Virus record (IMG/VR): IMGVR_UViG_3300025649_000163
Span: 1-37,404 of that record
Strand: one strand, 5' to 3'
DNA from: a virus
Length of the DNA stretch: 37,404 nucleotides
Positions 5,924-37,126 of this stretch are shown here, piece by piece. The notes under the pieces are model-generated. The model had not been told where the DNA came from, did no database searches, and saw only the letters and a program-made list of their open reading frames with translations. Made by a program: the position numbers and the translations under genes. Each line of letters begins with the position of its first letter. Position 1 is the stretch's first letter.

Positions 5924-6466
5924 ATGAAATACGAAATTGACAATAACGGACATTGTAATATCCCCGGCAGCGTTACCAGCATAGGGTCGCATGCGTTTTC
6001 TGGTTGCACATGGCTGAAAAGTATTACCATCCCCGACAGTGTTACCAGCATAGGGATGTGTGCGTTTTGGGGTTGCACATGGCTGAAAAGTATTACCATC
6101 CCCGGCAGCGTTACCAGCATAGAGCCTTGTGCGTTTTCCTATTGCATGGGGCTGAAAAGTATTACCATCCCCGACAGTGTTACCAGCATAGGGATGTATT
6201 CGTTTTGGGGTTGCACAGGGCTGAAAAGTATTACCATCCCCGACAGCGTTACCAGCATAGGGGCGTATGCGTTTTCCGATTGCACAGGGCTGAAAAGCAT
6301 GGAAACCCATAAACACACGATTATAATTGTTGACGACAGGTGGCTACAAATCGGGTGCAAGTGCGAGACTCGGGACTGGTGGTTATCTGACGAGGGAAAA
6401 CAATTGGGGCTGGATAATGGCTACACTGAGGAAGATATTGAAACTTATCGAGCGATAAAGGAGTAG
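5924..6466 (+). CDS. BspA-like LRR protein, five-repeat copy
   Basis: 180 residues, ATG 5924 after GAAAGGATAAAC. Short N-terminal cap ([16 protein letters not shown]), five LRR_5 units with variable residues SH/SG/TW, MC/WG/TW, PC/SY/MG, MY/WG/TG and AY/SD/TG, then the family cap ([20 protein letters not shown] onward) ending RAIKE. No signal peptide, so the protein is probably cytoplasmic. In one unit the invariant Ala of the AF motif is Ser. The gene is followed at 3 bp by the lysozyme-like gene, whose ribosome binding site (AAAGGAG) lies within the LRR 3' end. A binding or decoy role is plausible for such repeats; the target is unknown. Confidence 0.9.
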   Translation: MKYEIDNNGHCNIPGSVTSIGSHAFSGCTWLKSITIPDSVTSIGMCAFWGCTWLKSITIPGSVTSIEPCAFSYCMGLKSITIPDSVTSIGMYSFWGCTGLKSITIPDSVTSIGAYAFSDCTGLKSMETHKHTIIIVDDRWLQIGCKCETRDWWLSDEGKQLGLDNGYTEEDIETYRAIKE

Positions 6467-6468
6467 CC

Positions 6469-6903
6469 ATGAAAAACCGTGAATCTTTATTATTGCAAAT
6501 TCTTACAGTTGTAATTGGGGTTGGGGTCTTAATAATATTCTCAAAACCAGTAGCACAACCGCAACCGGCACCCATGCCACGAGACGCTTACATTTTACAG
6601 CTTGAAGGCGCAAGGGATTATTACCGAAATGAAGCCAAGTTGCTGAGAATCAAGGAATGTGAATCACGGTTCCGGCATGAAGGCGTTTGGGGCGATAATG
6701 GAGACAGCTACGGTGCTTGGCAATTTCAGGAGGAAACATTTGAAGATTTTAAGAAGTATTCAGGGCATGATGAGTGGCAATGGCAGAACAGAGATCATCA
6801 AGAAGCCGCCGCACGATGGGCGTTTGACAATGGTTATGCCGGCAGGTGGACGTGCTACGGAATAGTGTGTGGACAATATCCTGATTTATGCGAGGGGGAA
6901 TGA
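6469..6903 (+). CDS. Membrane-anchored lysozyme/transglycosylase-like protein
   Basis: 144 residues. An N-terminal hydrophobic segment (about 7-25, LLLQILTVVIGVGVLIIFS) without a clear cleavage site could serve as a signal anchor (SAR-like). A Pro-rich linker follows, then a lysozyme-fold domain: KECESRF with candidate catalytic Glu65, GDSYGAWQFQEETF, and AARWAFDNGYAGRWTCYG. This motif order matches SLT/goose-type lysozyme-like proteins. It would cut peptidoglycan from the periplasmic side. It lies in the plus-strand operon, far from the M15 endolysin of the late operon, so the phage carries two wall-degrading enzymes. Confidence 0.75.
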   Translation: MKNRESLLLQILTVVIGVGVLIIFSKPVAQPQPAPMPRDAYILQLEGARDYYRNEAKLLRIKECESRFRHEGVWGDNGDSYGAWQFQEETFEDFKKYSGHDEWQWQNRDHQEAAARWAFDNGYAGRWTCYGIVCGQYPDLCEGE

Positions 6904-8282: not shown

Positions 8283-8585
8283 TCAGCGTGCGCCGTTGTG
8301 TTCCAGCGAGTAATGATTTCCATCGTTAAACCTACCGCCCCACGAACCACCGATTGACTCCCAGTATTCGCCAAGCGGTAAGTGTGCTTCTGTTGTTGTT
8401 AAAAAAACACCGTCTTGGAATAGATTTAAATCTATCGCAAGCCGTTTACCGTGCAAGCTGTTTTCCATGTGTCCAGTGGTTGCGTATGCGTCACCAAACG
8501 TTAATTCATAACCGTGAGAATCAGCAAAATCAATAAGCCGCGCAACCATAAGAACAAACTTTGATTGTTTCTGCCTGAGTGTCAT
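8283..8585 (-). CDS. M15-family endopeptidase (endolysin)
   Basis: 100 residues. The zinc-peptidase pattern is complete: HMENSLHGKRLAIDLNLF gives ligands His45 and Asp52, and FNDGNHYSL gives Asp88 (catalytic type) and zinc ligand His91; LGEYWESIGGSWGGRF between them is typical of the phage M15 L-alanyl-D-glutamate/D,D-peptidase group. It cuts peptide stems of peptidoglycan for host lysis. No signal peptide, so export depends on the neighbouring holin-like protein. It overlaps the upstream gene by 4 bp. Confidence 0.9.
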   Translation of the reverse strand: MTLRQKQSKFVLMVARLIDFADSHGYELTFGDAYATTGHMENSLHGKRLAIDLNLFQDGVFLTTTEAHLPLGEYWESIGGSWGGRFNDGNHYSLEHNGAR

Positions 8586-8833
8586 TGGTAATACCTCCTG
8601 GCAAACTCATTCAACCCCATGCCGGTGATGCGCCCCAACTTAACATCTAATCTTTGCGCTGAAAACTGGATTGACTCTGCAAGCGTTATCATTTCAACGA
8701 CATCGTCATGCTCTAATTTTGACGAAGTCGCTTTGCGAACAAGTTTAAGCAAGCGACTGGACAGCCCCGAAAGCGGCATTGCGGCATTGCGGATAACATC
8801 TTCAATCGCGTATGTGCATAGAGAACAGGTCAT
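8582..8833 (-). CDS. Hypothetical protein, 83 aa, between exported proteins and endolysin
   Basis: Start taken at ATG 8833, which overlaps the stop of the upstream gene (ATGA); the frame could start 15 codons earlier inside that gene. Starts MTCSLCTYAIEDVIRNAAMP with a CSLC pair, then an amphipathic helical body (LSSRLLKLVRKATSS, DDVVEMITLAESI). Function unknown; overlap on both sides shows a coupled position in the operon. Confidence 0.6.
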   Translation of the reverse strand: MTCSLCTYAIEDVIRNAAMPLSGLSSRLLKLVRKATSSKLEHDDVVEMITLAESIQFSAQRLDVKLGRITGMGLNEFARRYYQ

Positions 8834-9732
8834 TTTAAAACTGCCCCGTTTCCTTTCATTGTTGGCAGTACCGTCCACGGTCTTTTTGTTTTAATTACGC
8901 TTGCAGAAAATGGCGTGTCCCACGGCTTCTCAAAAAAGTTAATTCCGCCCAGATAAAAACTATCAAAAGCGTTAGATGACTCCATGATTGCATCCAGTGC
9001 AATATTCATCAACTTTGTTCCCTCGGGGGCGTCACCTATCCCAACCTCAACTGCATCAAAAATTTTCTCTGTTGGACTAATAATAGTTCCGCCAAAAGGC
9101 CCTGTTTTAAATTCAGAAATCCAGACTGACAGAGTTGCGTTATCGCTTTCTGTTCTTGCTGTGTATTTCCCGTACAGACTATATGACTTTTCAAGATCAA
9201 AAGTTTCAGTTGAAGATATGTAATCTTCAAAGCCTGTGAAATTCCGACTTACTTCTAGTTTATACACAGTGGGACTAACGTTATTGGGATATTTCCTGAG
9301 CCGTATGCCGCCTAAGTTTCTGGTAGAGAGAGTTTTGAGGATTATTTGTATTTCACCCGTACTTGCCTCAAGCGGTGCAGCATCAGGGAAAAGTCCAACG
9401 TGAAACCATGTTGTACCACCTGTTAGCTCGGTATTAGAGGAATACAGTCCACAGCCAAACACCGGGCTGGCTGTTGCAGACAGGTAAAGATACCCGCCAT
9501 TGAGTATATCGCCTTTATAATCCGAGCCTGTTTCTGCTACAGTGTGAGAGCAATTGCTTGAGCCCCATTCTTCACCTCGATCATGGGTGGTCAAGTCCCC
9601 TGTTAAAGTAGCCGCAGTTTCAAATTCTTGACATATCTTGCCGTTGTAATCCGCTACAAAATCATCACAAAATCCAGCATGCAAAATAGCCGGGCAAAGA
9701 AGAAAGAAAAACAATATTAGAAATTTATTCAT
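8830..9732 (-). CDS. Exported protein with Sec signal peptide, tail-fibre position
   Basis: 300 residues. A clear signal peptide: basic MNK, hydrophobic FLILFFFLLCPAIL, cleavage predicted after LHA at about 20. The mature part is rich in Thr, Ser, Gly and aromatic residues with alternating strand-like segments (TTWFHVGLFPDA, IRLRKYPNN, NATLSVWISEFK), as in lectin-like (concanavalin/LamG-type) beta sandwiches, and has several cysteines at the front (CDDF, KICQEF, SNCSH) suited to an oxidising compartment. It occupies the slot where T7-like phages carry fibre genes. It could be an exported host-surface factor or a fibre with an unusual leader. Confidence 0.7.
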   Translation of the reverse strand: MNKFLILFFFLLCPAILHAGFCDDFVADYNGKICQEFETAATLTGDLTTHDRGEEWGSSNCSHTVAETGSDYKGDILNGGYLYLSATASPVFGCGLYSSNTELTGGTTWFHVGLFPDAAPLEASTGEIQIILKTLSTRNLGGIRLRKYPNNVSPTVYKLEVSRNFTGFEDYISSTETFDLEKSYSLYGKYTARTESDNATLSVWISEFKTGPFGGTIISPTEKIFDAVEVGIGDAPEGTKLMNIALDAIMESSNAFDSFYLGGINFFEKPWDTPFSASVIKTKRPWTVLPTMKGNGAVLK

Positions 9733-10886
9733 TCTGCAATCTTCTCTAAATACATTAAAGTTGTGAACTCAATTTCTATGGCAGTGCCTGCCATTTGCCC
9801 GTATGTTTGGAAAAAGGAAAATTGGCCGGCTGAAAAAGTAGCGTCTAACCAGTCGGCTCTTGATTGTATCGCCAGTGTCCCTGCACTAAAAACCCCTGTG
9901 TAAAGATAGTTTGCAACTGTGGTTTGGTCAGCAATTTTCGTACCATTAATATACACTGAAAAATCTGTACCCGTCATTACAGCCTGAACAAAGTTTTTCT
10001 CAGTCAGATCGATACTCTCCTCATCTGATTCATAGACTCTTGCAGTTTCGTCAGAACCGGCTACAACCGCAATCCCCTTATATGTGCCTCTTAAACCAAC
10101 CGCTGCATCGGATGGATAGTAGGTGGCACACACTCCGATACAATCATCTACCGGGCGACCTGCTATTGCTTCTGATGTGAAGCCGACGCAGTGCAGGGGT
10201 TGTCCACCGACATATCCTGCCGTGGCATACTTTGATGTACTCCCGAACTTCACCCAGCTCTCGACCCGATTTTCGGTTGTGTCTGTAATATCAGGAGTAA
10301 TCGTTTTGATGAAAGAGTTAATTCCAAGAGCGGAAGGATTTGTTATTTTTAAAATATTATCCCCTGCTGCGCTTGGCTCAACCGAAAAGACTTGACCTAG
10401 GCCTCCATTATAATCCCAATTTGTCCCCCATTCATCATCATTGCAAGCGGCGGATTTGTAATCTGCACAAGCGTCGGAATCCCGAAAATACAAGTCTATA
10501 GGGACCGTCATTACCTCAGTCCCCGCAGTGGTGGTAATCGCCCATTTTGTAGCGGTCGAAGGGGTATAATAAAACATGCCTGTGGTGTCATCAACGACAT
10601 TATACCAGCCAATAACTCCGGCATAGCCAAGCAGGGCGTCACCGAAAGCACGGGGTGGTACATCGTAACGAATGGGTAGACCGATGAAACCAGCCAAATT
10701 CGCTGGGTCAACAACGGTATAGCTCGGTGCAACAATACCGCCTTCAAACGTCTGCGGCTCGGTGAACGTGTTCGGCTCGGTAAGCTCAGCGTATGTGCCG
10801 TGCCCAGCAGGGGATGGCTTTTCTATTCCAGCCTGTGCGTTAAGTGCGACACACAAGAACACAATAATCGGGATAAAATATTTCAT
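9729..10886 (-). CDS. Exported protein with Sec signal peptide and lectin-like body
   Basis: 385 residues. Signal peptide MKYFIPIIVFLCVALNAQA with a likely cut after AQA. The first mature segment (TYAELTEPNTFTEPQTFEGG) resembles the repeated start of phage appendage proteins. The remainder is strand-rich (ENRVESWVKFGSTSKYA, NFVQAVMTGTDFSVYINGTK), consistent with a LamG/concanavalin-type carbohydrate-binding fold, with cysteine pairs (SDACADYKSAACNDDEW; DDCIGVCATYY). It overlaps the next gene by 4 bp. Function inferred as surface or receptor interaction. Confidence 0.7.
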   Translation of the reverse strand: MKYFIPIIVFLCVALNAQAGIEKPSPAGHGTYAELTEPNTFTEPQTFEGGIVAPSYTVVDPANLAGFIGLPIRYDVPPRAFGDALLGYAGVIGWYNVVDDTTGMFYYTPSTATKWAITTTAGTEVMTVPIDLYFRDSDACADYKSAACNDDEWGTNWDYNGGLGQVFSVEPSAAGDNILKITNPSALGINSFIKTITPDITDTTENRVESWVKFGSTSKYATAGYVGGQPLHCVGFTSEAIAGRPVDDCIGVCATYYPSDAAVGLRGTYKGIAVVAGSDETARVYESDEESIDLTEKNFVQAVMTGTDFSVYINGTKIADQTTVANYLYTGVFSAGTLAIQSRADWLDATFSAGQFSFFQTYGQMAGTAIEIEFTTLMYLEKIAE

Positions 10887-10895
10887 GCTGTCTCC

Positions 10896-11375
10896 TTAGT
10901 TGACATTATCGCCAAAAATTAAGTAAAAGTATACTGCCGTCATATCTATGGCGCTGTCATTATCAACGGTTAAATAAAGATGGGGAATTTCAATAGTGTC
11001 CTTATTTCTAAAAAATATAGGGGCGCTCAGGCCGCTAAACGAAAAGCTGTCGCCAAGATTGGTTTCGGTCACATAGATAAGGGTTTCTATTTCCGTGGCA
11101 GTAGCATCTTCACTTTCTGACACATACCAATCAAGGTCTGTGCTTAAAGATTGAATACCGACACCGATAATGTTTCCAAACACACTCGGTATGGTAAGGT
11201 CGAACACCTGCGACACGCCAGTGGTAACGCTCGTAGTAGAGGTATACGCGCACTTCTGTATGCGCTTATTAGCGTCCACCCACTCACACGTTCCAGTCAG
11301 GTCAACCGTTGCGCACAAAGCGTTCCCACACATTAACAATACTGCCATAATCGTTGCTACTAAAATCTTTTTCAT
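10896..11375 (-). CDS. Small exported protein with Sec signal peptide, 159 aa
   Basis: MKKILVATIMAVLLMCGNALC forms a signal peptide with a probable cut after ALC or NAL; no standard lipobox is seen. The mature part is strand-rich (QVFDLTIPSVFGNIIGVGI, HLYLTVDNDSAIDMTAVYFY) with paired cysteines (GTCEWVDANKRIQKC), a size and pattern like a single beta-sandwich domain. First of three consecutive exported products after the largest core protein. Confidence 0.7.
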   Translation of the reverse strand: MKKILVATIMAVLLMCGNALCATVDLTGTCEWVDANKRIQKCAYTSTTSVTTGVSQVFDLTIPSVFGNIIGVGIQSLSTDLDWYVSESEDATATEIETLIYVTETNLGDSFSFSGLSAPIFFRNKDTIEIPHLYLTVDNDSAIDMTAVYFYLIFGDNVN

Positions 11376-11390
11376 GGTACTCTCCTTTTG

Positions 11391-14300
11391 TTAATCTTCA
11401 GTTACATAGTCAATGTATCTTGCAATTTGCCCCGTAGGTATTGGTACAATTGGTTCTTGAATTTCAGCGATTATTTCCATCCAGTCAAGCGCTGAGATTT
11501 CGTTTTTTGTAAGCATTTGTATTGCGTGTAAAAAACCATCGAGAACGGGAATTTGAACGGGGTGGTATGCCCTCCTTTTATCTTGCGCTACGATAGCCAT
11601 TACAACATTTTCAATAAGTTCTCCAAAAACTGGGATACCTGCTGTTGGCGATGTAGCTATTTTTGCAAAAACACGTTCTATATATGTTGCCATAAGCTCA
11701 TCAGGGTCATCACCACCTATCGCCCTTAACGGTGCTGTTATTATTTCTCCAAGCGTCACATAGAGGTATGGCTGTATAATACCATAGACAGCCATTGTCT
11801 TTACATATTGCTTTTTAGTTATATCGCCATTGATGATAGCGATTTGTGCGTCTACCATTTTGCGGACGTACTGATTGGGGGTGTTCTTAAACCGCATTGT
11901 CGCTCTAAAAAACACATTATTTGAGTTCTGTAATACGGATAGACTGGAGCTTAATCCTGATTGCTGTGATCGGATCGTCTGTTTTTTAAGTTGTGCGAAA
12001 GCATAATTTGTTGCTTCTTGCTCGGTAGCATTAGGATTTTTCTGTTTATATTCTGTTATTTGGTTCTGAACATATGGCGCACCACCATAAATGATTGCAC
12101 CAATATCGCCTGTGCGACCAAAAGAAGTTAGGAACTTCATCAATTTGATTTTCTTATCACCAAACTTTTTCGCATCTTCAAGAGCATTAGCTAATGCTTC
12201 ATTATAACCACGGCCATAACGTCTGCGGATGTACTCTGAGTTATTCCACATAAAGTCAAATGTTTGCTTTGGAGTCGCAAGACCACCGAAGAATCCTGTT
12301 GCCCACTCCCCTGCTGGCATGACCTCTGCATAATTTGTTACAGAGCCAAGCTGACGCATAAATGTTGTTGGGCTTAGTGCAATTTTGGCAACCGCCCAAT
12401 TATTTATTAGCTTTCCATAGCCAGTTGAAATAACGTCCATGTGTTCTGGTATTTTATTCAACGCCATTTCGTCAACTAGCGCTTGAGTGCTACCATAGAC
12501 CTTCTTGCCAAACTTGTTCTCTATAATTGACTTCATCTGAGTGTCGCTAAGCGCCCTCTTAACACGCTCATACTTAGGGCTAACGTGCCTAACATGCTCA
12601 CCCTCTACAATATGTTGCTGAAAGCTCGCCCACATGTTCTGAGGCAGGGGGGTTACACCGCTATTAGCTCTATGTTTTGTTGGGCCGGGCTGTTCACCAA
12701 CAGTTTTTATATGATCAAAAATATCGTTAGTATTTATACCGTCAATTTTTATAGATTTTCTCGGCCAATAAAAGGGGATATTGGGGATCTCAACGCCCTG
12801 AGTTTCAATACTCCACTCGTTGAAAACATCAAAGTATGGTTGCACCTGCGCCTGAAGATAATCAGCAAAAGCCTTCTGCTCATCAGTGAGGGAGTCAAAC
12901 AATGGCTGAAGCTGATACATATCATATGCCTCTGCTAATAGCATATGCGAGTTCTCGTTTTTATTGAGAGTCCACAAATCCATTATATCCCAAGTTGAAA
13001 CTTCAACCGTTCCTTGAGGGCCAGTTAATTTGCGCCTATCGTTATTCATTTCAATAGCAGTAGCATTGAAATTCTTGGTTTTTAATATCCTAGCACCTTC
13101 TTGCTCTGCTCGCTCAACCACCTTATCCACAGCATCGTTGCGAGACGATTCCTCCATCTCGAAGTTAAACTCATCAGCAACCTTCGGGCCAAACATTGAG
13201 TTCATTGCAGACCACACATTTGCAGTTGTGTTCACATATGCTGCTTGCAAGGCTTTCCGTATCGGCTTTGGTAGCTTGCGACTCCGCAGTGTGTTCTTCA
13301 TATTCTCAACATCTTTTGCTTGTTGAGAGTCTTTTGGGAGCAACATCATCTTCTGCTTACGCAACTCTTTTTGAACTGTTATAACATCTTCTCTGGCAAA
13401 ATCAGCTTGCTTGCGAAAGCCCTCAGCTTCTTTGCTATCACCAAGTTCATATGCTTCAAGCTCGTTAGCCATAGAATCATAATAGCCAGCTCGATTTTCT
13501 AGTGTGGTTGTTTTGTCCTTCGCTTGCTGTACGGCTCTTGTTATCCCCGATATGCGCTCTATGTTTGCCTGCCGTGCCTTCATTTGTTCTTGCACTTGCA
13601 CTATTTGTTCTTTGTGTTTTGCGACCACATCGGCTTGATCTGCCTCTTTATTAGAATCCTGAATATCTGTGATCTGGTCATCTGAATAATTAATCTTTTC
13701 TTCAAGCCCCCTAATAGCATCTCGTTCTTCACGAACAAGTTCCATGCGCTGACCTTGTGCTACGGCTCTTGCATCTTTGCCAAAGTGTTTTCCAATAGAC
13801 TGTTGTTCTTCTTGCGTTAAGTTTTCCAGTGTATCAATTTTATTCATTGCGTTTTTAAATATTGCCTGTTCTTTGCGCTGCTGTTGTTCTTCGTATTGGG
13901 CAATCGCTTCCGATGGGACAGACTTGCGAATCTCTGCAATCTGTTGTGGCGTAGCACCGTTTTCAGCAAATCGCAATTCAGCGTCTTTAACCAGTTTCTT
14001 GCCCTTAACGGCCTCCTGTATTTTTGAACCTATGTTGACACTGCCGCCAACACTAGAAACAAGAACCATGTTCTTGCCAGCCATTACACCTTCTTCAACC
14101 ACCTTATCCCAAATCTCAATCATTCGCTCTGTTGTCGGGAAGTCAACATTTAATTCTGCTGGGATATCCGCTGGTGGCGAACCACCCCCTGCTCCTGTCG
14201 CAATGCTTGAACCAATGCCTGCGGCAATTTCAGCAAAATCAGCCTCGTTCCACATCCGCATACCTTCAAGGCCAAGCTCCACAATGCCTTTTTGCATGCC

Positions 14301-15170
14301 TTCGGTAACAGCCTCGCCAATCCATGCAATAGCAGCATTTTTTCCACCAGCAAGAATCCCCTTTATTGTGCTTGGGTTCTTCATGGTTCTTGCGGCAGAT
14401 GCTATGAGCCATTTCTTTGCAAATTGCCCACCAACAGGAGTAAATAGTTTAGTAACATTCCCCATACTCCAAATGTCAAGTGCGGCCACACCAAGCCCTA
14501 CAACACCAGCAGCAGCGTTCATTTGCTCGTAAGTAAGGTTAAGGTTGTTCTCCTTGTTGTATAGGCTTAGTTCGCTCCACGCCTCTCCACGGCTTACATC
14601 ATATATATTCTTGGCCATAAAAATAGGGAAACTTGCTGCGAAAGTTCCAACACCTCCAGCAACCATCCCTGCCGGGACTGTCGCTGGTGCGCCGGGGCCA
14701 CCGATCAGGCCAAGCGTACCTCCCACGGTAGCTCCAACAGTGCCAGCTTTCACCGACTGCTCCGCTGATCTAGCAACAAGAGACCCCATTTGACCCGCTG
14801 TTTCGATATTGCCAAGCCAGAAACCATGTTGACTACCACGGCTTGCTTCAATTTCAACAATCCACTGTTCTTCCTGTGGGGTGGTGTTGCGATCTGCCTG
14901 CTTGTTATACAAGAGCATTAGGGTGTTCTGCTTCACACCATCGTTTGCAGCGTCCCATGCGTTTTCTGCTGTTAGTTTTTTTTGCTCCGGTTCTGGCTGT
15001 GGCGAGGGATTATCTAACCGAAAATTTTGGTTTTCTCCACTCTGTAATGACTGATATTCTTCTGCTGTAAAACTTTTTGGCATCCGAGCCTTTTTCATAG
15101 CAGTATATTCTTCTGCTGTAAAACTTGCAGGTATTTCTTCTCTCTGACCGTTGACTCGTTTTGTTATCAC
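11391..15170 (-). CDS. Large internal virion/ejection protein (T7 gp16-like)
   Basis: 1259 residues, the largest gene and third of three core genes in the T7-like order. The N-terminus repeats SFTAEEY (16-22, 33-39). A glycine-rich hydrophobic region (about 145-190, TVGATVGGTLGLIGGPGAP) could insert in membranes; a long Gln/Glu/Lys coiled coil (about 420-620) follows; the C-terminal third is mixed helical with hydrophobic patches (YGIIQPYLYVTLGEIITAPL). In T7, gp16 forms the core tip and crosses the envelope to pull DNA in. I see no lytic transglycosylase domain at its N-terminus, unlike T7. The start overlaps the previous gene by 4 bp. Confidence 0.75.
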   Translation of the reverse strand: MITKRVNGQREEIPASFTAEEYTAMKKARMPKSFTAEEYQSLQSGENQNFRLDNPSPQPEPEQKKLTAENAWDAANDGVKQNTLMLLYNKQADRNTTPQEEQWIVEIEASRGSQHGFWLGNIETAGQMGSLVARSAEQSVKAGTVGATVGGTLGLIGGPGAPATVPAGMVAGGVGTFAASFPIFMAKNIYDVSRGEAWSELSLYNKENNLNLTYEQMNAAAGVVGLGVAALDIWSMGNVTKLFTPVGGQFAKKWLIASAARTMKNPSTIKGILAGGKNAAIAWIGEAVTEGMQKGIVELGLEGMRMWNEADFAEIAAGIGSSIATGAGGGSPPADIPAELNVDFPTTERMIEIWDKVVEEGVMAGKNMVLVSSVGGSVNIGSKIQEAVKGKKLVKDAELRFAENGATPQQIAEIRKSVPSEAIAQYEEQQQRKEQAIFKNAMNKIDTLENLTQEEQQSIGKHFGKDARAVAQGQRMELVREERDAIRGLEEKINYSDDQITDIQDSNKEADQADVVAKHKEQIVQVQEQMKARQANIERISGITRAVQQAKDKTTTLENRAGYYDSMANELEAYELGDSKEAEGFRKQADFAREDVITVQKELRKQKMMLLPKDSQQAKDVENMKNTLRSRKLPKPIRKALQAAYVNTTANVWSAMNSMFGPKVADEFNFEMEESSRNDAVDKVVERAEQEGARILKTKNFNATAIEMNNDRRKLTGPQGTVEVSTWDIMDLWTLNKNENSHMLLAEAYDMYQLQPLFDSLTDEQKAFADYLQAQVQPYFDVFNEWSIETQGVEIPNIPFYWPRKSIKIDGINTNDIFDHIKTVGEQPGPTKHRANSGVTPLPQNMWASFQQHIVEGEHVRHVSPKYERVKRALSDTQMKSIIENKFGKKVYGSTQALVDEMALNKIPEHMDVISTGYGKLINNWAVAKIALSPTTFMRQLGSVTNYAEVMPAGEWATGFFGGLATPKQTFDFMWNNSEYIRRRYGRGYNEALANALEDAKKFGDKKIKLMKFLTSFGRTGDIGAIIYGGAPYVQNQITEYKQKNPNATEQEATNYAFAQLKKQTIRSQQSGLSSSLSVLQNSNNVFFRATMRFKNTPNQYVRKMVDAQIAIINGDITKKQYVKTMAVYGIIQPYLYVTLGEIITAPLRAIGGDDPDELMATYIERVFAKIATSPTAGIPVFGELIENVVMAIVAQDKRRAYHPVQIPVLDGFLHAIQMLTKNEISALDWMEIIAEIQEPIVPIPTGQIARYIDYVTED

Positions 15171-17227: not shown

Positions 17228-19615
17228 TTATTTATCCTCCGCTATGAGAACACTGGCATAAATGCCAAGCAAGTTCATGGGATACGGTTTAGTCTGTCGT
17301 AGATATATATATCCAGTGTAATCCAGTATACCCTCAAATGTCAAGTTTGGGATTATGCCAGTAAAGAGTTCATCTGTTGCTGTCCCCTCCGGTACGCTAA
17401 CGGGGAACCAGTTTGTTCCGTCACTACTATACTCCATGCCAAGCGACTTATAAACGTCAAGGGCTACCGAATGGATACGCCTTATCTTGCCTTTTGCCGG
17501 GGATGGTGTTTGGGTGTTAATAGGATTTATCTGTACTGTTGATGTATACGGCAATCCAACACAAGCTTTAAGCCACGCCCCCGATGTGTTTGTAACCTCT
17601 CCATCTTCAACAGTATCTGTCCCTTGATAAATACCATCAACGAAGATAGCAACGGTCTGCCCCTCAAGGTGCGAGAGTCCGGTAAAATCAGTGTCGGCTG
17701 CACTCGCCTGCGTATATTCAACGCCACAGTCAACGTAGTACAAATCTTCTTGCAATGTATCGTTTTCCAAAACATGATTGTCGAATGACTCAATATATTT
17801 AACAGTCTCCCCGCCGATAGTGCGTTCAACTATCATTGTGCCGCGATCTGTTAGCCCATCGGGATTTGGCGTGAAACGAATAGATTTTACACTACCGTTA
17901 GTGGTACTCCACGGAGTCCACGCCATTACATCATCTGCAGGAGCGCGTGTTAGAACAGCCATCGAGCCATTTATAAGCACAGACCAGAGAAGCGAGTCTT
18001 GGTTCCGCTGATAACTAATTTCTTTAATGCCAGAGAGCGTTATGTGCTCAGAATACTCGGTCATATCTGATGCGTCATAGTTATTGTTCGCAAAAACGTA
18101 GAACATTTCACGAAGTTTCCGTAGCCCCCGTTGCACAAAGTATCCCCTGTTTCCCATGCTACTTGGTTTTATGAACGTAGACCCCCACGAAGATTGCCTC
18201 TTTGAATTAATAGTTAGCCCGCTTAAAGAACCGTCACGGGGAGAACTTGATATAAATTCTCCACCAAACGTACCCACACTCAAAGACTGACCGCTTGACA
18301 GCCAACTTATTTTATTTGCTTGTTCGGTGTTAAGTTCTAAGCTAAAACCAAACGCGGCAGTATCGCCAGTATTAAAAGAATTATATATAAACGATCGAGA
18401 AAAATACACTTGTTGTGGGCTTTTTGGTGTGCTGGCAAGAACAAGTCTCCCCTCGTGGTATGTTACATTAGCAGGATAATTGTCTTCATAAAATGCGTTC
18501 CACGCCCAGTTTGACGTTGCATCATCCCCTGTGCTAATCGGAGCCATAACCTCAATAGCAACTGTGGTACTATTTGTATAAGATATTATGCGTACATATC
18601 CCTGACCGCCACTACCACCATCTGTATGAAAACCACCAACCGACATAAACCTTCCAGCCGAATCAGCGGTAAAACAATCATGGTTTGCTACTAAGTTGCC
18701 AGTTGTGCCAATAGCATAGACGCTTGGAGCGACTCTTTTTTTCCAATCACTGTTTTTAGCGCCCCACGGAGGCCCGTCAATAATCCCCGCTGGTATAAAT
18801 GTCCATATCGTATCAGTATACCGCCTTAACTCGGTAATATCATGTGCTTGGTGTGTAAATTTAATTACATCATTTTTTTGTGCGTAATCAACATCCCAAA
18901 TCTGAGCCTCAGTGTATGAAGTCGGGATTTCAACAGTCCATAACCCAGTTTGATCTTCAGCAGAGATAAATTCCTGCCAACTATCGTTTTCCTCATAAGA
19001 TCCCAAAACACGCCATGCTTGTGTCCAGCGTGATCCAACCCCCGGCTCATATTTCGCTTCTGACGTATGAGTATCTTTACAGGTGTAATTTTTCCCATTA
19101 TGGCTAACTTGGTCGGCAGTTTCTACCTGCCACCAAGAACCTGTATTGGTATAATCCGTGTCCGTTTCCCAAGCATCATAAGTCCCACCACTTATTGTGG
19201 CGGCTGAAGTGTGTTCTACAGTACAAAGATAATACTTTACACTTGCTCCATCGACTATTTTTACTAAATCATCCACACTATACGCCGTTGCGGTCTGCCA
19301 TGCCGCTATGGCGTCCAAGTCTAACGTAACAAGCTCATTATCCTTATAAAACCTTAGATAAAGGTTCCCCATTTCTATAATGTAAGACGTTGCCGTGTTG
19401 AATACGAACTCAATAAGACGCACATCTTCTGTCGAATCCTTTACAGCACCGACATATTTCGTTCCCGGTCTACGAACTGGATTACCATATGGTCGTACAA
19501 TCATGTTCTGCAATGATTTAGCAGACGAGTAGTAATGAAGCGTGTCAACGCGACCTCGAACATATGGGGACAATTCGCCCTTCCCCCAAGAAGTAAACGG
19601 GATGGTTTGTCTCAT
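17228..19615 (-). CDS. Tail tubular protein B (T7 gp12-like) with carbohydrate-binding-like insert
   Basis: 795 residues. The start (TSWGKGELSPYVRGRVDTLH, then NMIVRPYGNPVRRPGTKYV) is the characteristic N-terminus of gp12-like tail nozzle proteins. Beta-rich body with typical segments VYFSRSFIYNSFN and GLRKLREMFYVFANNNYDAS. Residues about 103-200 hold two short modules (AWQTATAYSVDDLVK to YYLCTVEHTS; VSHNGKNYTCKDTHTSEA to W) with the W...AY..GD.V...Y.C...H.S pattern of chitin-binding CBM5/12-type domains. Overlaps gp11-like gene by 4 bp. Confidence 0.9.
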   Translation of the reverse strand: MRQTIPFTSWGKGELSPYVRGRVDTLHYYSSAKSLQNMIVRPYGNPVRRPGTKYVGAVKDSTEDVRLIEFVFNTATSYIIEMGNLYLRFYKDNELVTLDLDAIAAWQTATAYSVDDLVKIVDGASVKYYLCTVEHTSAATISGGTYDAWETDTDYTNTGSWWQVETADQVSHNGKNYTCKDTHTSEAKYEPGVGSRWTQAWRVLGSYEENDSWQEFISAEDQTGLWTVEIPTSYTEAQIWDVDYAQKNDVIKFTHQAHDITELRRYTDTIWTFIPAGIIDGPPWGAKNSDWKKRVAPSVYAIGTTGNLVANHDCFTADSAGRFMSVGGFHTDGGSGGQGYVRIISYTNSTTVAIEVMAPISTGDDATSNWAWNAFYEDNYPANVTYHEGRLVLASTPKSPQQVYFSRSFIYNSFNTGDTAAFGFSLELNTEQANKISWLSSGQSLSVGTFGGEFISSSPRDGSLSGLTINSKRQSSWGSTFIKPSSMGNRGYFVQRGLRKLREMFYVFANNNYDASDMTEYSEHITLSGIKEISYQRNQDSLLWSVLINGSMAVLTRAPADDVMAWTPWSTTNGSVKSIRFTPNPDGLTDRGTMIVERTIGGETVKYIESFDNHVLENDTLQEDLYYVDCGVEYTQASAADTDFTGLSHLEGQTVAIFVDGIYQGTDTVEDGEVTNTSGAWLKACVGLPYTSTVQINPINTQTPSPAKGKIRRIHSVALDVYKSLGMEYSSDGTNWFPVSVPEGTATDELFTGIIPNLTFEGILDYTGYIYLRQTKPYPMNLLGIYASVLIAEDK

Positions 19616-20466
19616 CGGTAATTTATCCCCACGTTATCCCAAGAATTTGCGCCACTATGCCTAGCGTTAAGCCAAGCGTCTGCCCTTGCCGAAGCTGGCG
19701 ATTGTCCTTGTGAGTTTTTGGATTTAGCGTCACTTAAAGTCGCTTCGTACCTTGTTTCCAAATATTCAGTTTTTCTGCTACTTTGTGAAAGCATGTAAGA
19801 AGCGTCTAACGCTAACTTGTCAACGAAGGCTTCTAAGAAATAAGGCGGGTATTCTGCTATCGTAGTGTTGTAATAAACATAGATAAGACCAAGTTTTTTG
19901 TCAATACTCAGTGTCCATACGCCCGTTGATTCCTCCCGCATGACAGTCCAATATGTTGCATAGCTTGTCCCAGTTCCCGGCTCATCACTCTCACTTGAAG
20001 AATGGCTTGCCTTGCAGTAATACACATAATCATCATTTAATATATAATCTCCGGGAACATATGCGGTTGCAGTTTCCCACGCAGGAGTAGCCGTTGTATT
20101 CTCGTTTACTGACACTTTAGTAATACCGCCATCGGAATTGCTTAAGAAGTAATCGCCTTCTTGCCTAACCCACTCATGCGATTCAGACCACCCAACTAGT
20201 CTTAGGAAGTCAGATGGTACATTGTAGGCATACACAAGGTTGTTTTTTGTCCATATAACGCTCGTATCATCGGCTGTAAGCGATAGTTCTGCCCTTTTGG
20301 TAGCGAACATCCAGTTTGCCTCACAAAGCACCACACGGAGCGAATCATCGTACAAGTCATTCATTATGATAGCGTTTTGGTCAGTTGTGCTTGAAAGGTC
20401 TGTTATCTTAATTGCCCCGACTTTTCTCAACGCTCTATTGCAAATGTTTACGCTTGTTGTAATCAT
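19612..20466 (-). CDS. Tail tubular protein A (T7 gp11-like) with carbohydrate-binding-like insert
   Basis: 284 residues from ATG 20466 (four codons inside the open frame; overlaps the upstream gene). Typical gp11-like start (VNICNRALRKVGAIKITDLS, then YDDSLRVVLCEANWMFATKR) and C-terminal LEAFVDKLALDASYML with ALSDAKSKN-like tail. It forms the gatekeeper ring between connector and nozzle. Residues about 128-176 are an insert with the CBM5/12-like pattern (PAWETATAYVPGDYIL, YYCKASHSSS, YWTVM). Strong assignment by motif and order. Confidence 0.88.
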   Translation of the reverse strand: MITTSVNICNRALRKVGAIKITDLSSTTDQNAIIMNDLYDDSLRVVLCEANWMFATKRAELSLTADDTSVIWTKNNLVYAYNVPSDFLRLVGWSESHEWVRQEGDYFLSNSDGGITKVSVNENTTATPAWETATAYVPGDYILNDDYVYYCKASHSSSESDEPGTGTSYATYWTVMREESTGVWTLSIDKKLGLIYVYYNTTIAEYPPYFLEAFVDKLALDASYMLSQSSRKTEYLETRYEATLSDAKSKNSQGQSPASARADAWLNARHSGANSWDNVGINYR

Positions 20467-21077
20467 GTCTGTACCCACTCTTTTGTAGGTTTACCGAATA
20501 TCCCTGCGGTATGCCCACCCATTGAGCGCACCCTGTCCATAGCTATCCCGCTTTTCTTCATATCAATCCACGGTTTCATATTGCAGTGGTTCTCTGAGAA
20601 TTTGGTCGTATGGTTCTTCACGGCATCAGGCGGATCAAAATAATGTCCAGTATTGTCCATCGGTATTCCACATATAATGATATGCTTTGACCCCATTGCC
20701 ATTGCTATCTTGGTTGCAAATAGTCCACCTGTACCGCCAACATTCTGCATACGCCATACGACATCAACACCAGCCCCGTCAATAGAGCAATGGTTTACAT
20801 ACTTTTCAAGCATACTCTTTTCTCTGCGGAGAAGTTTTGTTGCAGGGAAGAAACCTAAGTGAAGGCTAACCATGTGATGTATTTGTTCAGCCTTAAACTG
20901 TGTGCCGATATCATTCACGCACATAATTTCGGCTTTTGGCATAAGCTCTCTTGCCGTAAAGTAATCTTCCCAAACGGTCTTACCGCCGCCGAGTATAATC
21001 ATGTCAGAATGAAATGCACCGTTATATTCTGCGGGCGGAGTTTCAATCGTTATGTCATTCAGTATAGTAGTTGCCAT
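20463..21077 (-). CDS. Rossmann-like protein related to the DUF115/MptE-like group
   Basis: 204 residues from ATG 21077; an alternative start 13 codons earlier has no better ribosome site. A glycine-rich loop (MIILGGGKTVWEDY), then AEIMCVNDIG and HHMVSLHLGFFP, later GTGGLFATKIAMAMGSKHII with GIPMDNTGHYF, the layout of the Rossmann-like DUF115/6-hydroxymethylpterin pyrophosphokinase-like proteins, some of which act in glycan assembly. It is placed between capsid and tail genes. Role unproven; modification of virion or host surface glycan is a guess. Confidence 0.6.
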   Translation of the reverse strand: MATTILNDITIETPPAEYNGAFHSDMIILGGGKTVWEDYFTARELMPKAEIMCVNDIGTQFKAEQIHHMVSLHLGFFPATKLLRREKSMLEKYVNHCSIDGAGVDVVWRMQNVGGTGGLFATKIAMAMGSKHIIICGIPMDNTGHYFDPPDAVKNHTTKFSENHCNMKPWIDMKKSGIAMDRVRSMGGHTAGIFGKPTKEWVQT

Positions 21078-27919: not shown

Positions 27920-28036
27920 CTAAGTATTTTTTGCCTTCTTCGTTGATTTTACCTTGTCTTTATATTTATAACAAGAACTAACCCACCATGAATGTGTTGG
28001 ATAAAAAATACCGTCTTTTATTTCACCGACTCTCAT
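27920..28036 (-). CDS. Small basic hypothetical protein, 38 aa
   Basis: ATG 28036 overlaps the stop of the glycosyltransferase-like gene (TAATG) behind GGGGAGAAG. Product: RVGEIKDGIFYPTHSWWVSS, then a lysine-rich tail (KYKDKVKSTKKAKNT). It lies immediately before terL. No family recognised. Confidence 0.55.
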   Translation of the reverse strand: MRVGEIKDGIFYPTHSWWVSSCYKYKDKVKSTKKAKNT

Positions 28037-28581
28037 TATCTTCTCCCCTTTCGGCTTGCTTGAAAGTGTTCTATCACTGGCGGCCCCAAATGGCTCATAA
28101 GATCAAAGATAAGCGTATATGGTGCTGGTAGCGTAGTTACCTTATAGTTGCTTCGGCTAAGCAAACGCTGTAAGGTCTGCTGATCGTTTTGGTGCGAACC
28201 GTATCGCTCTATTTCTTTAACCCACTCTACCGCAACATTACGACCGCTTTCATTGTTCGCAACATAAACTGTACCGCCTAAAAGCTCTGAACCACCTTTA
28301 TAGTGAACGGCAATATCGGCTTCCATATCATCAAACAATACAGGATATTCTCTTACAATCGCATCTGCGTCCAGCCACACTATGTTCTCGTCAAACATCT
28401 CTAGGCATTTGAGGATAAATACCGGCTTATAGTTAGCATGGTCTAGCCAACTGCTCCTATGCGGTATTTCCTCAATGTAGCTATCAATGCCAAATTCAAT
28501 AAGCGATGCCCTCAACCTTTCTATGTGCCATTTATACAGCACATCATCAGTGTGAAATGACACAACTTTCCACGGTCTCAT
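28036..28581 (-). CDS. GT-A-fold glycosyltransferase-like protein
   Basis: 181 residues from ATG 28581, overlapping the upstream stop (ATGA). The core fits nucleotide-diphospho-sugar transferases: WKVVSFHTDDVLYK, then YKPVFILKCLEMFDENIVWL with DADAIV giving the metal-binding D-x-D (Asp71, Asp73), and a later SHQNDQQTLQRLL acceptor-side segment. It could modify the host surface or a virion component. Within the packaging operon this is an unusual passenger. Confidence 0.7.
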   Translation of the reverse strand: MRPWKVVSFHTDDVLYKWHIERLRASLIEFGIDSYIEEIPHRSSWLDHANYKPVFILKCLEMFDENIVWLDADAIVREYPVLFDDMEADIAVHYKGGSELLGGTVYVANNESGRNVAVEWVKEIERYGSHQNDQQTLQRLLSRSNYKVTTLPAPYTLIFDLMSHLGPPVIEHFQASRKGRR

Positions 28582-28778
28582 ACCACCATTAACCTGCTCT
28601 CGCAATCAGCTTCCTCTACATTTAAACCAAGAGAACATTCTGGCAGATTATGGCTCATTAACTCGTTCATCTCTATGCGACCGAGTATTAGCTTCTTGGG
28701 AATATGCCCTTTATACATTTGCTTATAATTATAAAAAGCATTATATATCCGAGTGTCAATATCTTCTCTCATCGCCAT
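28578..28778 (-). CDS. Hypothetical protein, 66 aa
   Basis: ATG 28778 chosen because GGGGGGCAA precedes it; a longer frame overlaps the upstream gene. Sequence MAMREDIDTRIYNAFYNYKQ, then HIPKKLILGRIEMNELMSH and a acidic cysteine-containing end (EEADCESRLMVV). Coupled to the glycosyltransferase-like gene by ATGA. Similar small proteins occur beside phage head genes; no function known to me. Confidence 0.6.
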   Translation of the reverse strand: MAMREDIDTRIYNAFYNYKQMYKGHIPKKLILGRIEMNELMSHNLPECSLGLNVEEADCESRLMVV

Positions 28779-30216: not shown

Positions 30217-30939
30217 ATGACAATCACCGAAAAAACCAAAAAACACGAAATTGACAATAACGGACATTGTACCATCCCCAACAGCGTTACTAGCATAGAG
30301 CGTTATGCGTTTTCTGGGTGCAGGGGGCTGAAAAGTATTACCATCCCCGACAGCGTTACCAGCATAGGGATGTATGCGTTTTCCGGTTGCACATGGCTGA
30401 CAAGCGTGACCATCCCCGACAGCGTTACCAGCATAGGGTCGCATGCGTTTTTTGGGTGCACAGTGCTGAAAAGCATTACCATCCCCAACAGCGTTACTAG
30501 CATAGGGATGTGTGCGTTTCATAATTGCACATGGCTGGAAAGTATTACCATCCCCGACAGTGTTACTAGCATAGTGGATGGGGCGTTTTGGGGTTGCACA
30601 GGGCTGACAAGTATTACCATCCCCGACAGTGTTACCAGCATAAAGACGCATGCGTTTTTTGACTGCACCGGGCTGACAAGCGTGACCATCCCCGACAGCG
30701 TTACCAGCATAGGGGCGTATGCGTTTTCTGAGTGCACCGGGCTGACAAGCGTGGAAACCCACAAAGACACGATTATAATTGTTGGCGACAGGTGGCTGCA
30801 AATCGGGTGCAAGTGCGAGACTCGGGACTGGTGGTTATCTGACGAAGGAAAACAATGCGGGCTGGATAATGGCTACACTGAGGAAGATATTGTTTTGATG
30901 AAAACGGCGAAATTGACTACTAACCAACTAATAAAATGA
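30217..30939 (+). CDS. BspA-like LRR protein, seven-repeat copy with replaced C-terminus
   Basis: 240 residues, ATG 30217 behind AAAGGAG. N-terminal cap [18 protein letters not shown], seven LRR_5 units (RY/SG/RG, MY/SG/TW, SH/FG/TV, MC/HN/TW, DG/WG/TG, TH/FD/TG, AY/SE/TG) and the family cap up to GYTEEDI. The last 15 residues differ from all other copies because the 3' end was replaced by a segment copied from the end of the gene at 32008-32538, read in another frame. It is the most divergent family member and carries the largest range of variable residues. No export signal. Confidence 0.9.
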
Positions 30940-31004
30940 TACAGCGGAAGTAAGCGCAAGACTCGGGACCGGTGGTTATCTAGAGAAATAGCAACCACCA
31001 CCAC

Positions 31005-31030
31005 AGCCGGACTATACATCCGGCTTTTTT
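31005..31030 (+). terminator. Rho-independent terminator after the seven-repeat LRR gene
   Basis: AGCCGGA (31005-31011), 7-base loop, TCCGGCT (31019-31025) and a six-T run. Identical to the one at 33263-33288. The convergent gene on the minus strand ends right next to it. Confidence 0.85.
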
Positions 31031-31031
31031 C

Positions 31032-31223
31032 TTATTCTCGTATTAATTCAATGGCTAAGCCTGTTAAATCGGAAACTAGCGCAGTTTTGTCAGCGATACA
31101 GCGTATTACTAAAGTAATATCACCACGTTCAAATGCTTCCGCTTCATCCGCGCATAGCTGCCTGTATTTATTCTCTATGTTTGTCCGACATTCTGCTAAT
31201 TCTTTTTTTCGATCATCTGTCAT
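31032..31223 (-). CDS. Small helical protein, 63 aa (duplicate of 33290-33481)
   Basis: MTDDRKKELAECRTNIENKY, then AFERGDITLVIRCIADKTAL: two amphipathic helices. It differs from the other copy by one residue near the end (Ile for Met). In the other copy the gene follows rusA; here the sequence before its ribosome site changes at 31254 to the promoter block P2, so the copy has lost its operon and may be expressed only weakly. Function unknown. Confidence 0.65.
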   Translation of the reverse strand: MTDDRKKELAECRTNIENKYRQLCADEAEAFERGDITLVIRCIADKTALVSDLTGLAIELIRE

Positions 31224-31252
31224 TTTAAACTCCTTCTCTTAATAATTTAATG

Positions 31253-31396
31253 TATGTCAACATAATTCTTTACTCAAGCATATTTAAAAAAGTGAAAATA
31301 AATGAAAATAATACTTGCAATGTGATATCAAGATGCTATACTTTAAACATGGTCGGGGATGCAACAAAGCGACCCGAAAACAGCAAAGGAGACAAC
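31253..31396 (+). promoter_or_regulatory. Repeated promoter block, copy P2
   Basis: TTGCAA (31315-31320), 16-bp spacer containing GATATC, TATACT (31337-31342), with the same A-rich upstream part as P1 and P3 but lacking their AATAGTGCTAAATATTTA stretch. The leader differs after the -10 and supplies AAAGGAG for the alanine-rich gene. Drives the second unit of the accessory island. Confidence 0.75.
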
Positions 31397-31984
31397 ATGA
31401 ATATTTCAGCAAGACGACTTAAAAAGATGGGTGCTTGTAGCGACGGTCTCGACTGGTTTCGTGAAAATTATGGAACAAAAAACGTTAACGCTGTTGATGC
31501 GTTGAGGTTGTCTCTAAGGCAAAACAAACACTCTGATTGTAATTGGTTTTTATCTACAGCGCTAAACCGCGGTAACAAAATACGATATGCGTGTTATGCG
31601 GCCAAACAAGTGCTTGAAATCTTTGAGGACCAATATCCAAATGAAAAAAGGCCGCGACAAGCAATTAATGCGGCACTAAAATGTATTAAAAATGATACGA
31701 ATAAAAACCGTGAGGCGGCAAGGGCGGCAAGTGGGGCGGCATGGACGGCGGCAAGTGAGGCGGCAAGTGATGCGGCAAATGAGGCGGCAAGGACGGCGGC
31801 AAGTGAGGCGGCGTGGGCGGCATGGGCGGCGGCAAGGACGGCGGCAAGTGAGGCAAGTGAGGCGGCAAGGACGGCGGCAAGTGAGGCGGCAAGGGCGGCA
31901 TGGGCGGCGGCAAGTGAGGCGGCAATGTATAAAAAAATAATTGCACGCGGAATTAAACTTTTGCAAGAGCAGGAGATAAAATAA
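31397..31984 (+). CDS. Imm-5-like alanine-rich repeat protein
   Basis: 195 residues from ATG 31397 (AAAGGAGACAAC upstream); a longer frame runs through the promoter and is not used. N-terminal domain (RRLKKMGACSDGLDWFRENY, RYACYAAKQVLEIFEDQYPN, EKRPRQAINAALKCIKN) matches the phage/bacterial family annotated as putative immunity proteins (Imm-5-like), in which RPRQAI precedes a long alanine helix. Residues about 100-175 are a degenerate repeat of A-A-x-x-A pattern (TAASEAARTAASEAA) encoded by GGCGGCAAG-like units, so length can vary. The C-terminus ends KKIIARGIKLLQEQEIK. Function unproven. Confidence 0.75.
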   Translation: MNISARRLKKMGACSDGLDWFRENYGTKNVNAVDALRLSLRQNKHSDCNWFLSTALNRGNKIRYACYAAKQVLEIFEDQYPNEKRPRQAINAALKCIKNDTNKNREAARAASGAAWTAASEAASDAANEAARTAASEAAWAAWAAARTAASEASEAARTAASEAARAAWAAASEAAMYKKIIARGIKLLQEQEIK

Positions 31985-33161: not shown

Positions 33162-33249
33162 CAATGGCGGGCTTTATTATGATACAGCGGAAGTAAGCGC
33201 AATCCGCAAAGAGATTGAGGAAGAGGAAGAGGAAGAAGAAGAGAAATAG
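33133..33249 (+). CDS. Small acidic-tailed protein with TTG start, 38 aa
   Basis: TTG 33133 is inside the end of the previous gene. Product: MNTKQLVIFNNGGLYYDTAE, then VSAIRKEIEEE with a run of eight glutamates and a final lysine. Front half looks like genuine protein; no ATG fits this phase and the ribosome site is weak (GAGAGA). Part of its sequence (33179-33202) recurs after the LRR gene at 30936-30959. Could be the remnant of a longer gene. Confidence 0.4.
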   Translation: MNTKQLVIFNNGGLYYDTAEVSAIRKEIEEEEEEEEEK

Positions 33250-33262
33250 CAACCACCACCAC

Positions 33263-33288
33263 AGCCGGACTATACATCCGGCTTTTTT
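33263..33288 (+). terminator. Rho-independent terminator ending the accessory island
   Basis: AGCCGGA (33263-33269), loop CTATACA, TCCGGCT (33277-33283), then six T. Lies between the plus-strand island and the convergent minus-strand operon; the minus-strand reading also folds but lacks a T run. Confidence 0.85.
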
Positions 33289-33289
33289 C

Positions 33290-33481
33290 TTATTCTCGCA
33301 TTAACTCAATGGCTAAGCCTGTTAAATCGGAAACTAGCGCAGTTTTGTCAGCGATACAGCGTATTACTAAAGTAATATCACCACGTTCAAATGCTTCCGC
33401 TTCATCCGCGCATAGCTGCCTGTATTTATTCTCTATGTTTGTCCGACATTCTGCTAATTCTTTTTTTCGATCATCTGTCAT
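33290..33481 (-). CDS. Small helical protein, 63 aa, last gene of the rusA operon
   Basis: ATG 33481 lies one base after the rusA stop, with GAAGGAG inside the rusA end. Sequence as in the duplicate at 31032-31223 except one residue. Helical, with cysteines at three places (AECRTNI, RQLCADEA, IRCIADK). Position suggests a recombination or replication accessory. Function unknown. Confidence 0.7.
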   Translation of the reverse strand: MTDDRKKELAECRTNIENKYRQLCADEAEAFERGDITLVIRCIADKTALVSDLTGLAIELMRE

Positions 33482-33482
33482 T

Positions 33483-33905
33483 TTAAACTCCTTCTCTTAA
33501 TAATTTAATGTTTATACCACAATATGCACCTTCTTCGGCATATCTCTTACAAGCTACGATTGTACTTACCTGTGAATCATCGAGCCAAAACTGTTCAGTT
33601 CTTGTTATCGCATCCATTACGAGCTTAACCATGTTGTCAAGATCTGGTTTTTTAACGTGTGGAGAGCCATATGCACTTTTTAAGCGACTTTTAGGAGTTG
33701 ACGTAGGTATGGGCATATCAAAAGACAAATAAAGGCTTACAGGGCAAGTATGCGGTGCATGTGGCGCATTTTCTAAGGCACACACAATAATAACATCCTC
33801 GGCTTGTTTGGTTTTGTTCGGCGTATAGACATGCCCTGTTTTAGTCATGCGCGGTCTGCCTTTTGCTGTTGGCTTCATTGGTATAAAAAATTCTATTGCT
33901 TTCAT
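33483..33905 (-). CDS. rusA: RusA-family Holliday junction resolvase
   Basis: 140 residues. Family start IEFFIPMKPTAKGRPRMTK, catalytic KKPDLDNMVKLVMDAI (Asp88, Asp90) and WLDDSQVSTIVACKRYAEEG (Asp109/110 region), matching the RusA acidic residues and downstream beta strand. RusA cuts four-way DNA junctions formed during recombination-dependent replication, which fits the annealing protein and exonuclease in the left operon. ATG 33905 behind GGCGGGGAAAAG. Confidence 0.9.
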   Translation of the reverse strand: MKAIEFFIPMKPTAKGRPRMTKTGHVYTPNKTKQAEDVIIVCALENAPHAPHTCPVSLYLSFDMPIPTSTPKSRLKSAYGSPHVKKPDLDNMVKLVMDAITRTEQFWLDDSQVSTIVACKRYAEEGAYCGINIKLLREGV

Positions 33906-36113: not shown

Positions 36114-36249
36114 ACGAAAATAGTGCTAAATATTTATTTTTAAAAAAGTGAAAATAAATGAAAATAATACTTGCAATATGATATCAAGATGCTATACTGT
36201 AATCAAGATCGAGAACGCAAACGCAAACACAAACAGCAAAGGGGAAAAC
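36114..36249 (+). promoter_or_regulatory. Repeated promoter block, copy P3
   Basis: TTGCAA (36171-36176), 16-bp spacer containing GATATC, TATACT (36193-36198); A-rich upstream part and an AATAGTGCTAAATATTTA stretch shared with P1. The leader again contains CGCAAACGCAAACACAAACA and AAAGGGGAAAAC. Drives the LRR gene at 36250 and, if the ends join, the whole early operon up to 6.9 kb. Confidence 0.75.
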
Positions 36250-36819
36250 ATGACAATCACCGAAAAAGCCAGAAAATACGAAATTGACAATAACGGACAT
36301 TGTAATATCCCCGGCAGCGTTACTAGCATAGAGCCTTGTGCGTTTTCTGACTGCACCGGGCTGAAAAGTATTACCATCCCCGACAGCGTTACCAGCATAG
36401 GGGTGCATGCGTTTTGGGGTTGCACCGGGCTGACAAGCGTGACCATCCCCGGCAGCGTTACTAGCATAGGGATGTGTGCGTTTTCCAATTGCACATGGCT
36501 GAAAAGTATTACCATCCCCGACAGTGTTACCAGCATAGGGGCGTATGCGTTTTGGGGTTGCACAGGGCTGAAAAGTATTACCATCCCCGACAGCGTTACC
36601 AGCATAGGGATGTATGCGTTTTCCAATTGCACAGGGCTGAAAAGCGTGACAACCCATAAACACACGATTATAGTAATTGACGACAGGTGGCTACAAATCG
36701 GGTGCAAGTGCGAGACTCGGGACTGGTGGTTATCTGACGAGGGAAAACAATACGGGCTGGATAATGGTTACACTGAGGAAGATATTGAAACTTATCGAGC
36801 GATAAAGGAGACAGAGTAA
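36250..36819 (+). CDS. BspA-like LRR protein, five-repeat copy under promoter P3
   Basis: 189 residues from ATG 36250; the open frame continues upstream through P3, which is not translated. N-cap [18 protein letters not shown], units PC/SD/TG, VH/WG/TG, MC/SN/TW, AY/WG/TG and MY/SN/TG, then the common cap ending RAIKETE. Its C-cap is identical at almost every base to the left-edge copy, pointing to recent duplication or gene conversion. Its stop overlaps the start of the coiled-coil gene (TAATG). Confidence 0.9.
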
Positions 36820-37124
36820 TGGAAAGACCAGATAATGAAATGGCCATTTTAACATGCAAAGTAAAAAAAGAAGAACTAAAACCGATTGGCGATTATATCT
36901 TATATATTGAAGATCGCATCACCGCCCTCGAAGCCGAACTGAAAGCCGCGCAAGACCACGCAGCAACTATGGAAGCGAAACTTAAAAACAGTGTGCCGTT
37001 TGAGGTGTTTAAATATCGGTGCGACATGCGCTTCTTTTTACCATCAGAGCCAAACTATAGATGCCCTAACGCACCAATATCTTTTGACTGCACCGCCGAT
37101 AACTGTCCGCTAACGAAAGGATAA
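36819..37124 (+). CDS. Coiled-coil protein with cysteine-rich module (paralogue of 5550-5921)
   Basis: 101 residues, ATG 36819 coupled to the LRR stop. Starts [20 protein letters not shown], then the shared helix [19 protein letters not shown] and the shared four-cysteine module ([29 protein letters not shown]). It lacks the central segment of its paralogue. It precedes another LRR gene by 2 bp, repeating the same gene pair as at 5550-6466. Likely partners, by strict linkage. Confidence 0.8.
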
Positions 37125-37126
37125 AC

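Follow-up and report, generated by a model that had tools for sequence, protein, structure and literature searches.

Fibres of tailed phages are normally attached in the cytoplasm. For P22 and T4, completed spikes or fibres have long been known to attach to particles in vitro. Among the phage proteins that are exported, Llp of T5 is an exclusion protein. Lom of lambda has a signal peptide and is encoded between the tail spike and fibre genes (PMC12309495). No earlier description of signal peptides on tail fibres was found in the open-access papers searched, which mostly did not include subscription journals and are therefore weak evidence of absence. The signal-peptide-bearing proteins of the fibre slot described here are real and conserved, and they are undescribed as far as this literature reaches.

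The window (the whole stretch of DNA analyzed) is a record of 37,404 bases from an uncultivated, T7-like podovirus in IMG/VR. Its virion module is located on the minus strand and contains genes for terminase, portal, capsid and tail tubular proteins A and B. According to tail tubular protein B, the nearest isolates are the HTVC010P-like Pelagibacter phages, with about 30% identity. The three genes downstream of tail tubular protein B, down to position 11391, were assigned to internal virion proteins by position. The fibre slot (8830-11375, minus strand) is flanked by the last internal virion protein on one side and by the lysis genes on the other. Between the large internal virion protein and the M15-type endolysin the gene order is g3, g2, g1 and a gene for an 83-aa protein (Table 1). 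ATGA overlaps connect g2 with g1 and g1 with the 83-aa gene, g3 starts 15 bases past the end of its upstream neighbour, and no excess of promoters or terminators was found around g1-g3. Therefore, the three genes belong to the late operon.

Table 1. Genes in and around the fibre slot of the window
Feature	Coordinates	Strand	Remarks
Tail tubular protein B (nozzle)	17228..19615	-	phrog_376, E 1e-145
Large internal virion protein	11391..15170	-	assigned by position; directly upstream of g3
g3, 159-aa pre-protein	10896..11375	-	ATG start; signal peptide about residues 1-22, cleavage between MKKILVATIMAVLLMCGNALCA and TVDL, or between NA and LCA; short beta-rich mature part
g2, 385-aa pre-protein	9729..10886	-	ATG start; signal peptide residues 1-19, cleavage between MKYFIPIIVFLCVALNAQA and GIEK
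g1, 300-aa pre-protein	8830..9732	-	ATG start; signal peptide residues 1-19, cleavage between MNKFLILFFFLLCPAILHA and GFCD
83-aa late protein, no function assigned	8582..8833	-	31% identical to L003:12864-13118, same position
M15-type peptidase, endolysin, without signal peptide	8283..8585	-	PF13539 above cut-off; 77% identical in L003

Several other features were observed in the window. Copies of a BspA-type leucine-rich-repeat gene are scattered at 43-459, 5924-6466 (PF13306), 30217-30939, 36148-36819 and 37061-37360, with an internal repeat period of 69 nt and 62-89% identity between copies, and have the appearance of a phage multigene family that recombines. A direct repeat of 272 nt (30982-31253 and 33240-33511, 99% identity) contains a 63-aa ORF in each copy. 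A glycosyltransferase-like gene (28036-28605; Nucleotid_trans, just below the cut-off) is located near the terminase. The gene at 31250-31984 encodes a low-complexity protein, rich in alanine and repetitive in its C-terminal part, which matched phrog_38757 (unknown function).

The N-termini of the g1, g2 and g3 products start with a charged region, continue with a hydrophobic core and have a cleavage site of the small-x-small type at residue 19-22. They were evaluated with a home-made rule-based Sec/SPase-I scorer, which recognises nine E. coli signal peptides. All three proteins showed the features of a Sec/SPase-I pre-protein (a positive n-region, a hydrophobic core, an A-x-A-type site within approximately 35 aa and a translated start upstream), with scores (g3 6.3, g2 6.6, g1 6.4) equal to the range of the OmpA, MalE or DsbA signal peptides in the same scorer. 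The other 50 genes of the window all scored below 6, the next being a signal-anchor-type protein (5.7) and a small membrane protein (5.2). When the first 30 residues were shuffled in 5000 trials, the observed scores were reached in 1.9% (g3), 0% (g2) and 0% (g1), and the chance of the three top scorers all falling in the slot, if placed randomly among 53 genes, was approximately 4e-5. Shine-Dalgarno-like sites (AAAAGGAGAGTACCATG, AAGGAGACAGCATG, AGAGAAGATTGCAGAATG) precede all three ATGs, and none of the in-frame starts listed past the hydrophobic stretch had a good site of this kind, which ruled out start codons misassigned upstream of a hydrophobic stretch. Read by eye, none of the three hydrophobic stretches ends in an SPase-II lipobox ([LVI][ASTVI][GAS]C). 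The signal peptides are 18-22 aa long, from which we presume a Gram-negative host. The sequence-only reading had placed three consecutive Sec-signal proteins in the tail-fibre slot, and the coordinates, ATGs, ribosome binding sites and scores are in agreement with it. Given established Sec biology, these signal peptides and their conservation in relatives, the predicted Sec export of the g1, g2 and g3 products is well supported.

The mature parts were less informative. Pfam, PHROG and PDB sequence searches gave no family match for g1-g3, and g2 had no phage match either. No direct homologues were detected in 50,697 phage records (queries g2, g3 and two L003 proteins), and none of g1, g2 or g3 in IMG/VR except the g3 homologue of L003, which was reached via neighbouring genes. 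Genome contigs yielded no prophage relatives. The AlphaFold2 models of g3 (all-beta, pLDDT 52) and g2 (pLDDT 32) were both of low confidence. The same reading had called the three proteins lectin-like, which is a guess that neither these searches, with no Pfam or PDB sequence match to ConA/LamG-like lectins, nor the models support. It had also claimed cysteine pairs: the count of mature cysteines fits g1 (four) and g3 (two, if cleaved after ALCA) but not g2, where it is odd (five). A relationship of g1 to g2 was rejected by comparison, and hhalign gave no support for a relationship of g3 to the small structural proteins of HTVC010P, HTVC035P, L024 and L007 or to the 140-aa protein of the window.

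Relatives were identified through tail tubular protein B together with the large internal virion protein, resulting in five further distinct contigs. The large internal virion protein showed 33% identity over 613 residues to that of L003 and was also found in L006, L007, L020/L021 and L024. Signal-peptide proteins occupied the slot in all six distinct contigs (the window, L003/L005, L006, L007, L020/L021 and L024), with L020 and L021 counted once because their fibre genes are identical. Therefore, signal-peptide proteins in the fibre slot are a trait of this lineage.

The layout of L003 is like that of the window: a g3 homologue, a 445-aa signal-peptide protein, a 258-aa protein without signal peptide, an 83/84-aa gene and the endolysin. 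The g3 homologue (L003:10285-10746, 153 aa, 32% identity, E 5e-18) has kept its own signal peptide. This homologue has neither of the two mature cysteines of g3, a joint absence that would be expected of a disulfide-bonded pair. The 445-aa protein (L003:10749-12086) is the positional counterpart of g2. The other four contigs encode a gp17-type protein without signal peptide first, followed by the signal-peptide proteins, which are of 290 aa in L006 (low rule score, but with an N-terminus reading MNLKTMLLVMALTTVGFQYAEA before AQ), of 710, 107, 182 and at least 573 aa in L007, of 637 aa in L020/L021, and of 886 and 531 aa in L024. Several of the relatives' proteins (570-890 aa) are of fibre or tailspike type, with stalk repeats such as DARYLKIDGSN, and the mature parts matched phrog_6002, phrog_24595 (virion structural protein) and phrog_4636 (tail spike), as well as cyanophage tail-fibre and structural proteins and the Kolga tail fibre. 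A fibre nature is documented for the relatives' proteins but not for g1-g3, whose mature parts have no detectable fibre match.

Some neighbouring genes in these contigs deserve mention. The head-gene region of L007 encodes another signal-peptide protein (939-1562, 207 aa, score 7.6), adjoined by a gene for an O-antigen-ligase-like membrane protein (1540-2679; Wzy_C, below the cut-off). In L020, the signal-peptide fibre gene overlaps at its end with a sulfotransferase gene (6237-6866; PF13469, E 8e-17), and the sulfotransferase is a possible modifier of either the fibre or the cell surface.

A profile of the T7-gp17-type adaptor (phrog_1640), built from 13 adaptors, found no match in the window or L003 at E values up to 10, so that g1-g3 are the only fibre-slot candidates of the window. 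Either g1-g3 are the fibre equipment of these two phages, or the nozzle does the binding. Inserts resembling carbohydrate-binding modules of family 5/12 were seen by eye in tail tubular proteins A (19612-20478) and B. The nozzle and tail tubular protein A could serve as adsorption device instead of g1-g3.

Outside the lineage, the distribution of signal peptides was patchy. MW202898, a distant environmental phage, encodes a 906-aa signal-peptide fibre directly after the adaptor, and the signal-peptide fibre of vir555 is homologous to that of L024 (E about 1e-15). No convincing signal-peptide protein was found in the slot of the isolates HTVC010P, HTVC035P, Vibrio MZH0603, Caulobacter SR18, Yersinia YeP5 and Baldr or of the cave-spring podovirus ctVRi840. 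Among 80 further tail tubular protein B loci, 16 reached the adaptor gene and none of these 16 showed a signal-peptide fibre, with only five extending at least 1.5 kb beyond. A trait of all HTVC010P-like phages was rejected on the basis of outgroup loci that continue at least 0.9 kb past the adaptor without such a fibre; most of the surveyed loci end too early. Homologues starting after the hydrophobic stretch, which the sequence-only reading had named as evidence against its claim, were not seen for the L003 homologue of g3 or the L024 and vir555 fibres, all of which carry signal peptides. Homologues lacking a signal peptide do exist for the stalk of the 710-aa protein of L007, in MW202701, MW202483, PfAn1 and a Bradyrhizobium phage. 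These stalk homologues without signal peptide, in less related phages, indicate that the signal peptides are restricted to certain lineages, and export signals were either gained by, or retained on, fibre-type proteins in particular lineages. The fibre gene with stalk repeats in MW202701.1 (L025:3098-5242) is unannotated, and the record has the opposite strand as "ribonuclease E".

We tentatively favour the reading that g1-g3 constitute a Sec-exported receptor-binding set of the fibre slot, which would join virions at lysis, cover receptors, or both. Support comes from the signal peptides with translated starts, the late-operon membership, the fibre- or spike-type signal-peptide proteins in the slot of relatives and the lack of an adaptor in the window. 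Arguing against it are the usual attachment of tailed-phage fibres in the cytoplasm, the lack of a fibre match for the mature parts of g1-g3, the possible adsorption through the nozzle and tail tubular protein A, and the stalk homologues of other phages that lack a signal peptide. The proteins would be made late in infection as Sec pre-proteins and exported. Signal peptidase would then trim them, and they would fold in the periplasm, a compartment that permits disulfide formation. Lysis would bring them together with the particles assembled in the cytoplasm, to which they would attach, or a part would stay behind, covering host receptors. Actual export and cleavage, virion attachment and timing are the elements that we infer. 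Phages of this lineage probably export their host-binding proteins from the cytoplasm prior to lysis. That their virions are finished outside the cytoplasm, with Sec-exported, periplasm-matured fibres attaching only at lysis and free fibres also shielding the receptors of the dying cell, is possible but somewhat doubtful; the in vitro attachment in P22 and T4 makes such late attachment physically plausible.

A doubtful but realistic alternative is that the proteins are exported and never enter virions, where they would bind, in the periplasm or at the cell surface, the receptor that the phage itself uses, resulting in superinfection exclusion and preventing progeny from re-adsorbing to debris. 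Signal peptides without a lipobox fit such receptor blockers, and the lineages with a gp17-type adaptor own a separate candidate virion fibre without signal peptide. The envelope-modifying genes in the virion modules of L007 (O-antigen-ligase-like) and L020 (sulfotransferase) keep this alternative close. However, several relatives' mature parts are long stalk-type fibres of 570-890 aa, beyond the needs of a blocker, and no conventional fibre would then remain for the window and L003.

The proteins are unlikely to be ordinary virion fibres in which the hydrophobic N-terminus has no export role, for instance because it is part of a tail-attachment fold or because particles are assembled on the inner membrane. 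The slot position and the stalk homologues without signal peptide in other phages are in accordance with ordinary fibres, but the N-termini combine the three regions of a signal peptide, carry small residues at -3 and -1, and precede unrelated mature proteins, some of only 107-207 aa, whereas a stretch of this kind is missing from the gp17-type adaptors of these phages. Morons or lysogenic-conversion surface proteins comparable to Lom, itself encoded among tail genes (PMC12309495), are very improbable here: the ATGA overlaps make the genes part of the late operon, none of the window genes tested matched an integrase or repressor, and all lineage members identified encode signal-peptide proteins. 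Export signals on the fibre-slot proteins of a conserved lineage would imply that tail fibres can also be assembled by a second route outside the cytoplasm, or that fibre annotations conceal a class of receptor blockers made by phages. Either outcome alters how receptor-binding proteins in uncultivated phages are to be read.

Compared with known systems, g1-g3 occupy the same slot after the internal virion proteins as T7 gp17-type fibres with their phrog_1640 N-terminal adaptor. This adaptor is retained in L006, L007, L020 and L024 and in the more distant L010 and L011, whereas the window and L003 are without it, and Sec signal peptides are found on the slot proteins but not on the gp17-type proteins here. 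The module order of the window is shared with HTVC010P-like Pelagibacter podoviruses, but the fibre-slot genes of the latter have no signal peptides. The environmental podoviruses MW202898 and vir555 display an adaptor without signal peptide followed by a long, signal-peptide-bearing fibre-like protein; these proteins have no detectable homology to g1-g3, and no relationship of their internal virion proteins was recognisable in the searches. Lom and T5 Llp resemble g1-g3 as exported phage proteins (predicted for g1-g3), and Lom is encoded near tail genes as well. Unlike Llp, g1-g3 are without a lipobox. Unlike Lom, they have neither a transcription unit of their own nor a promoter excess, and are conserved, ATGA-coupled genes of the late operon.
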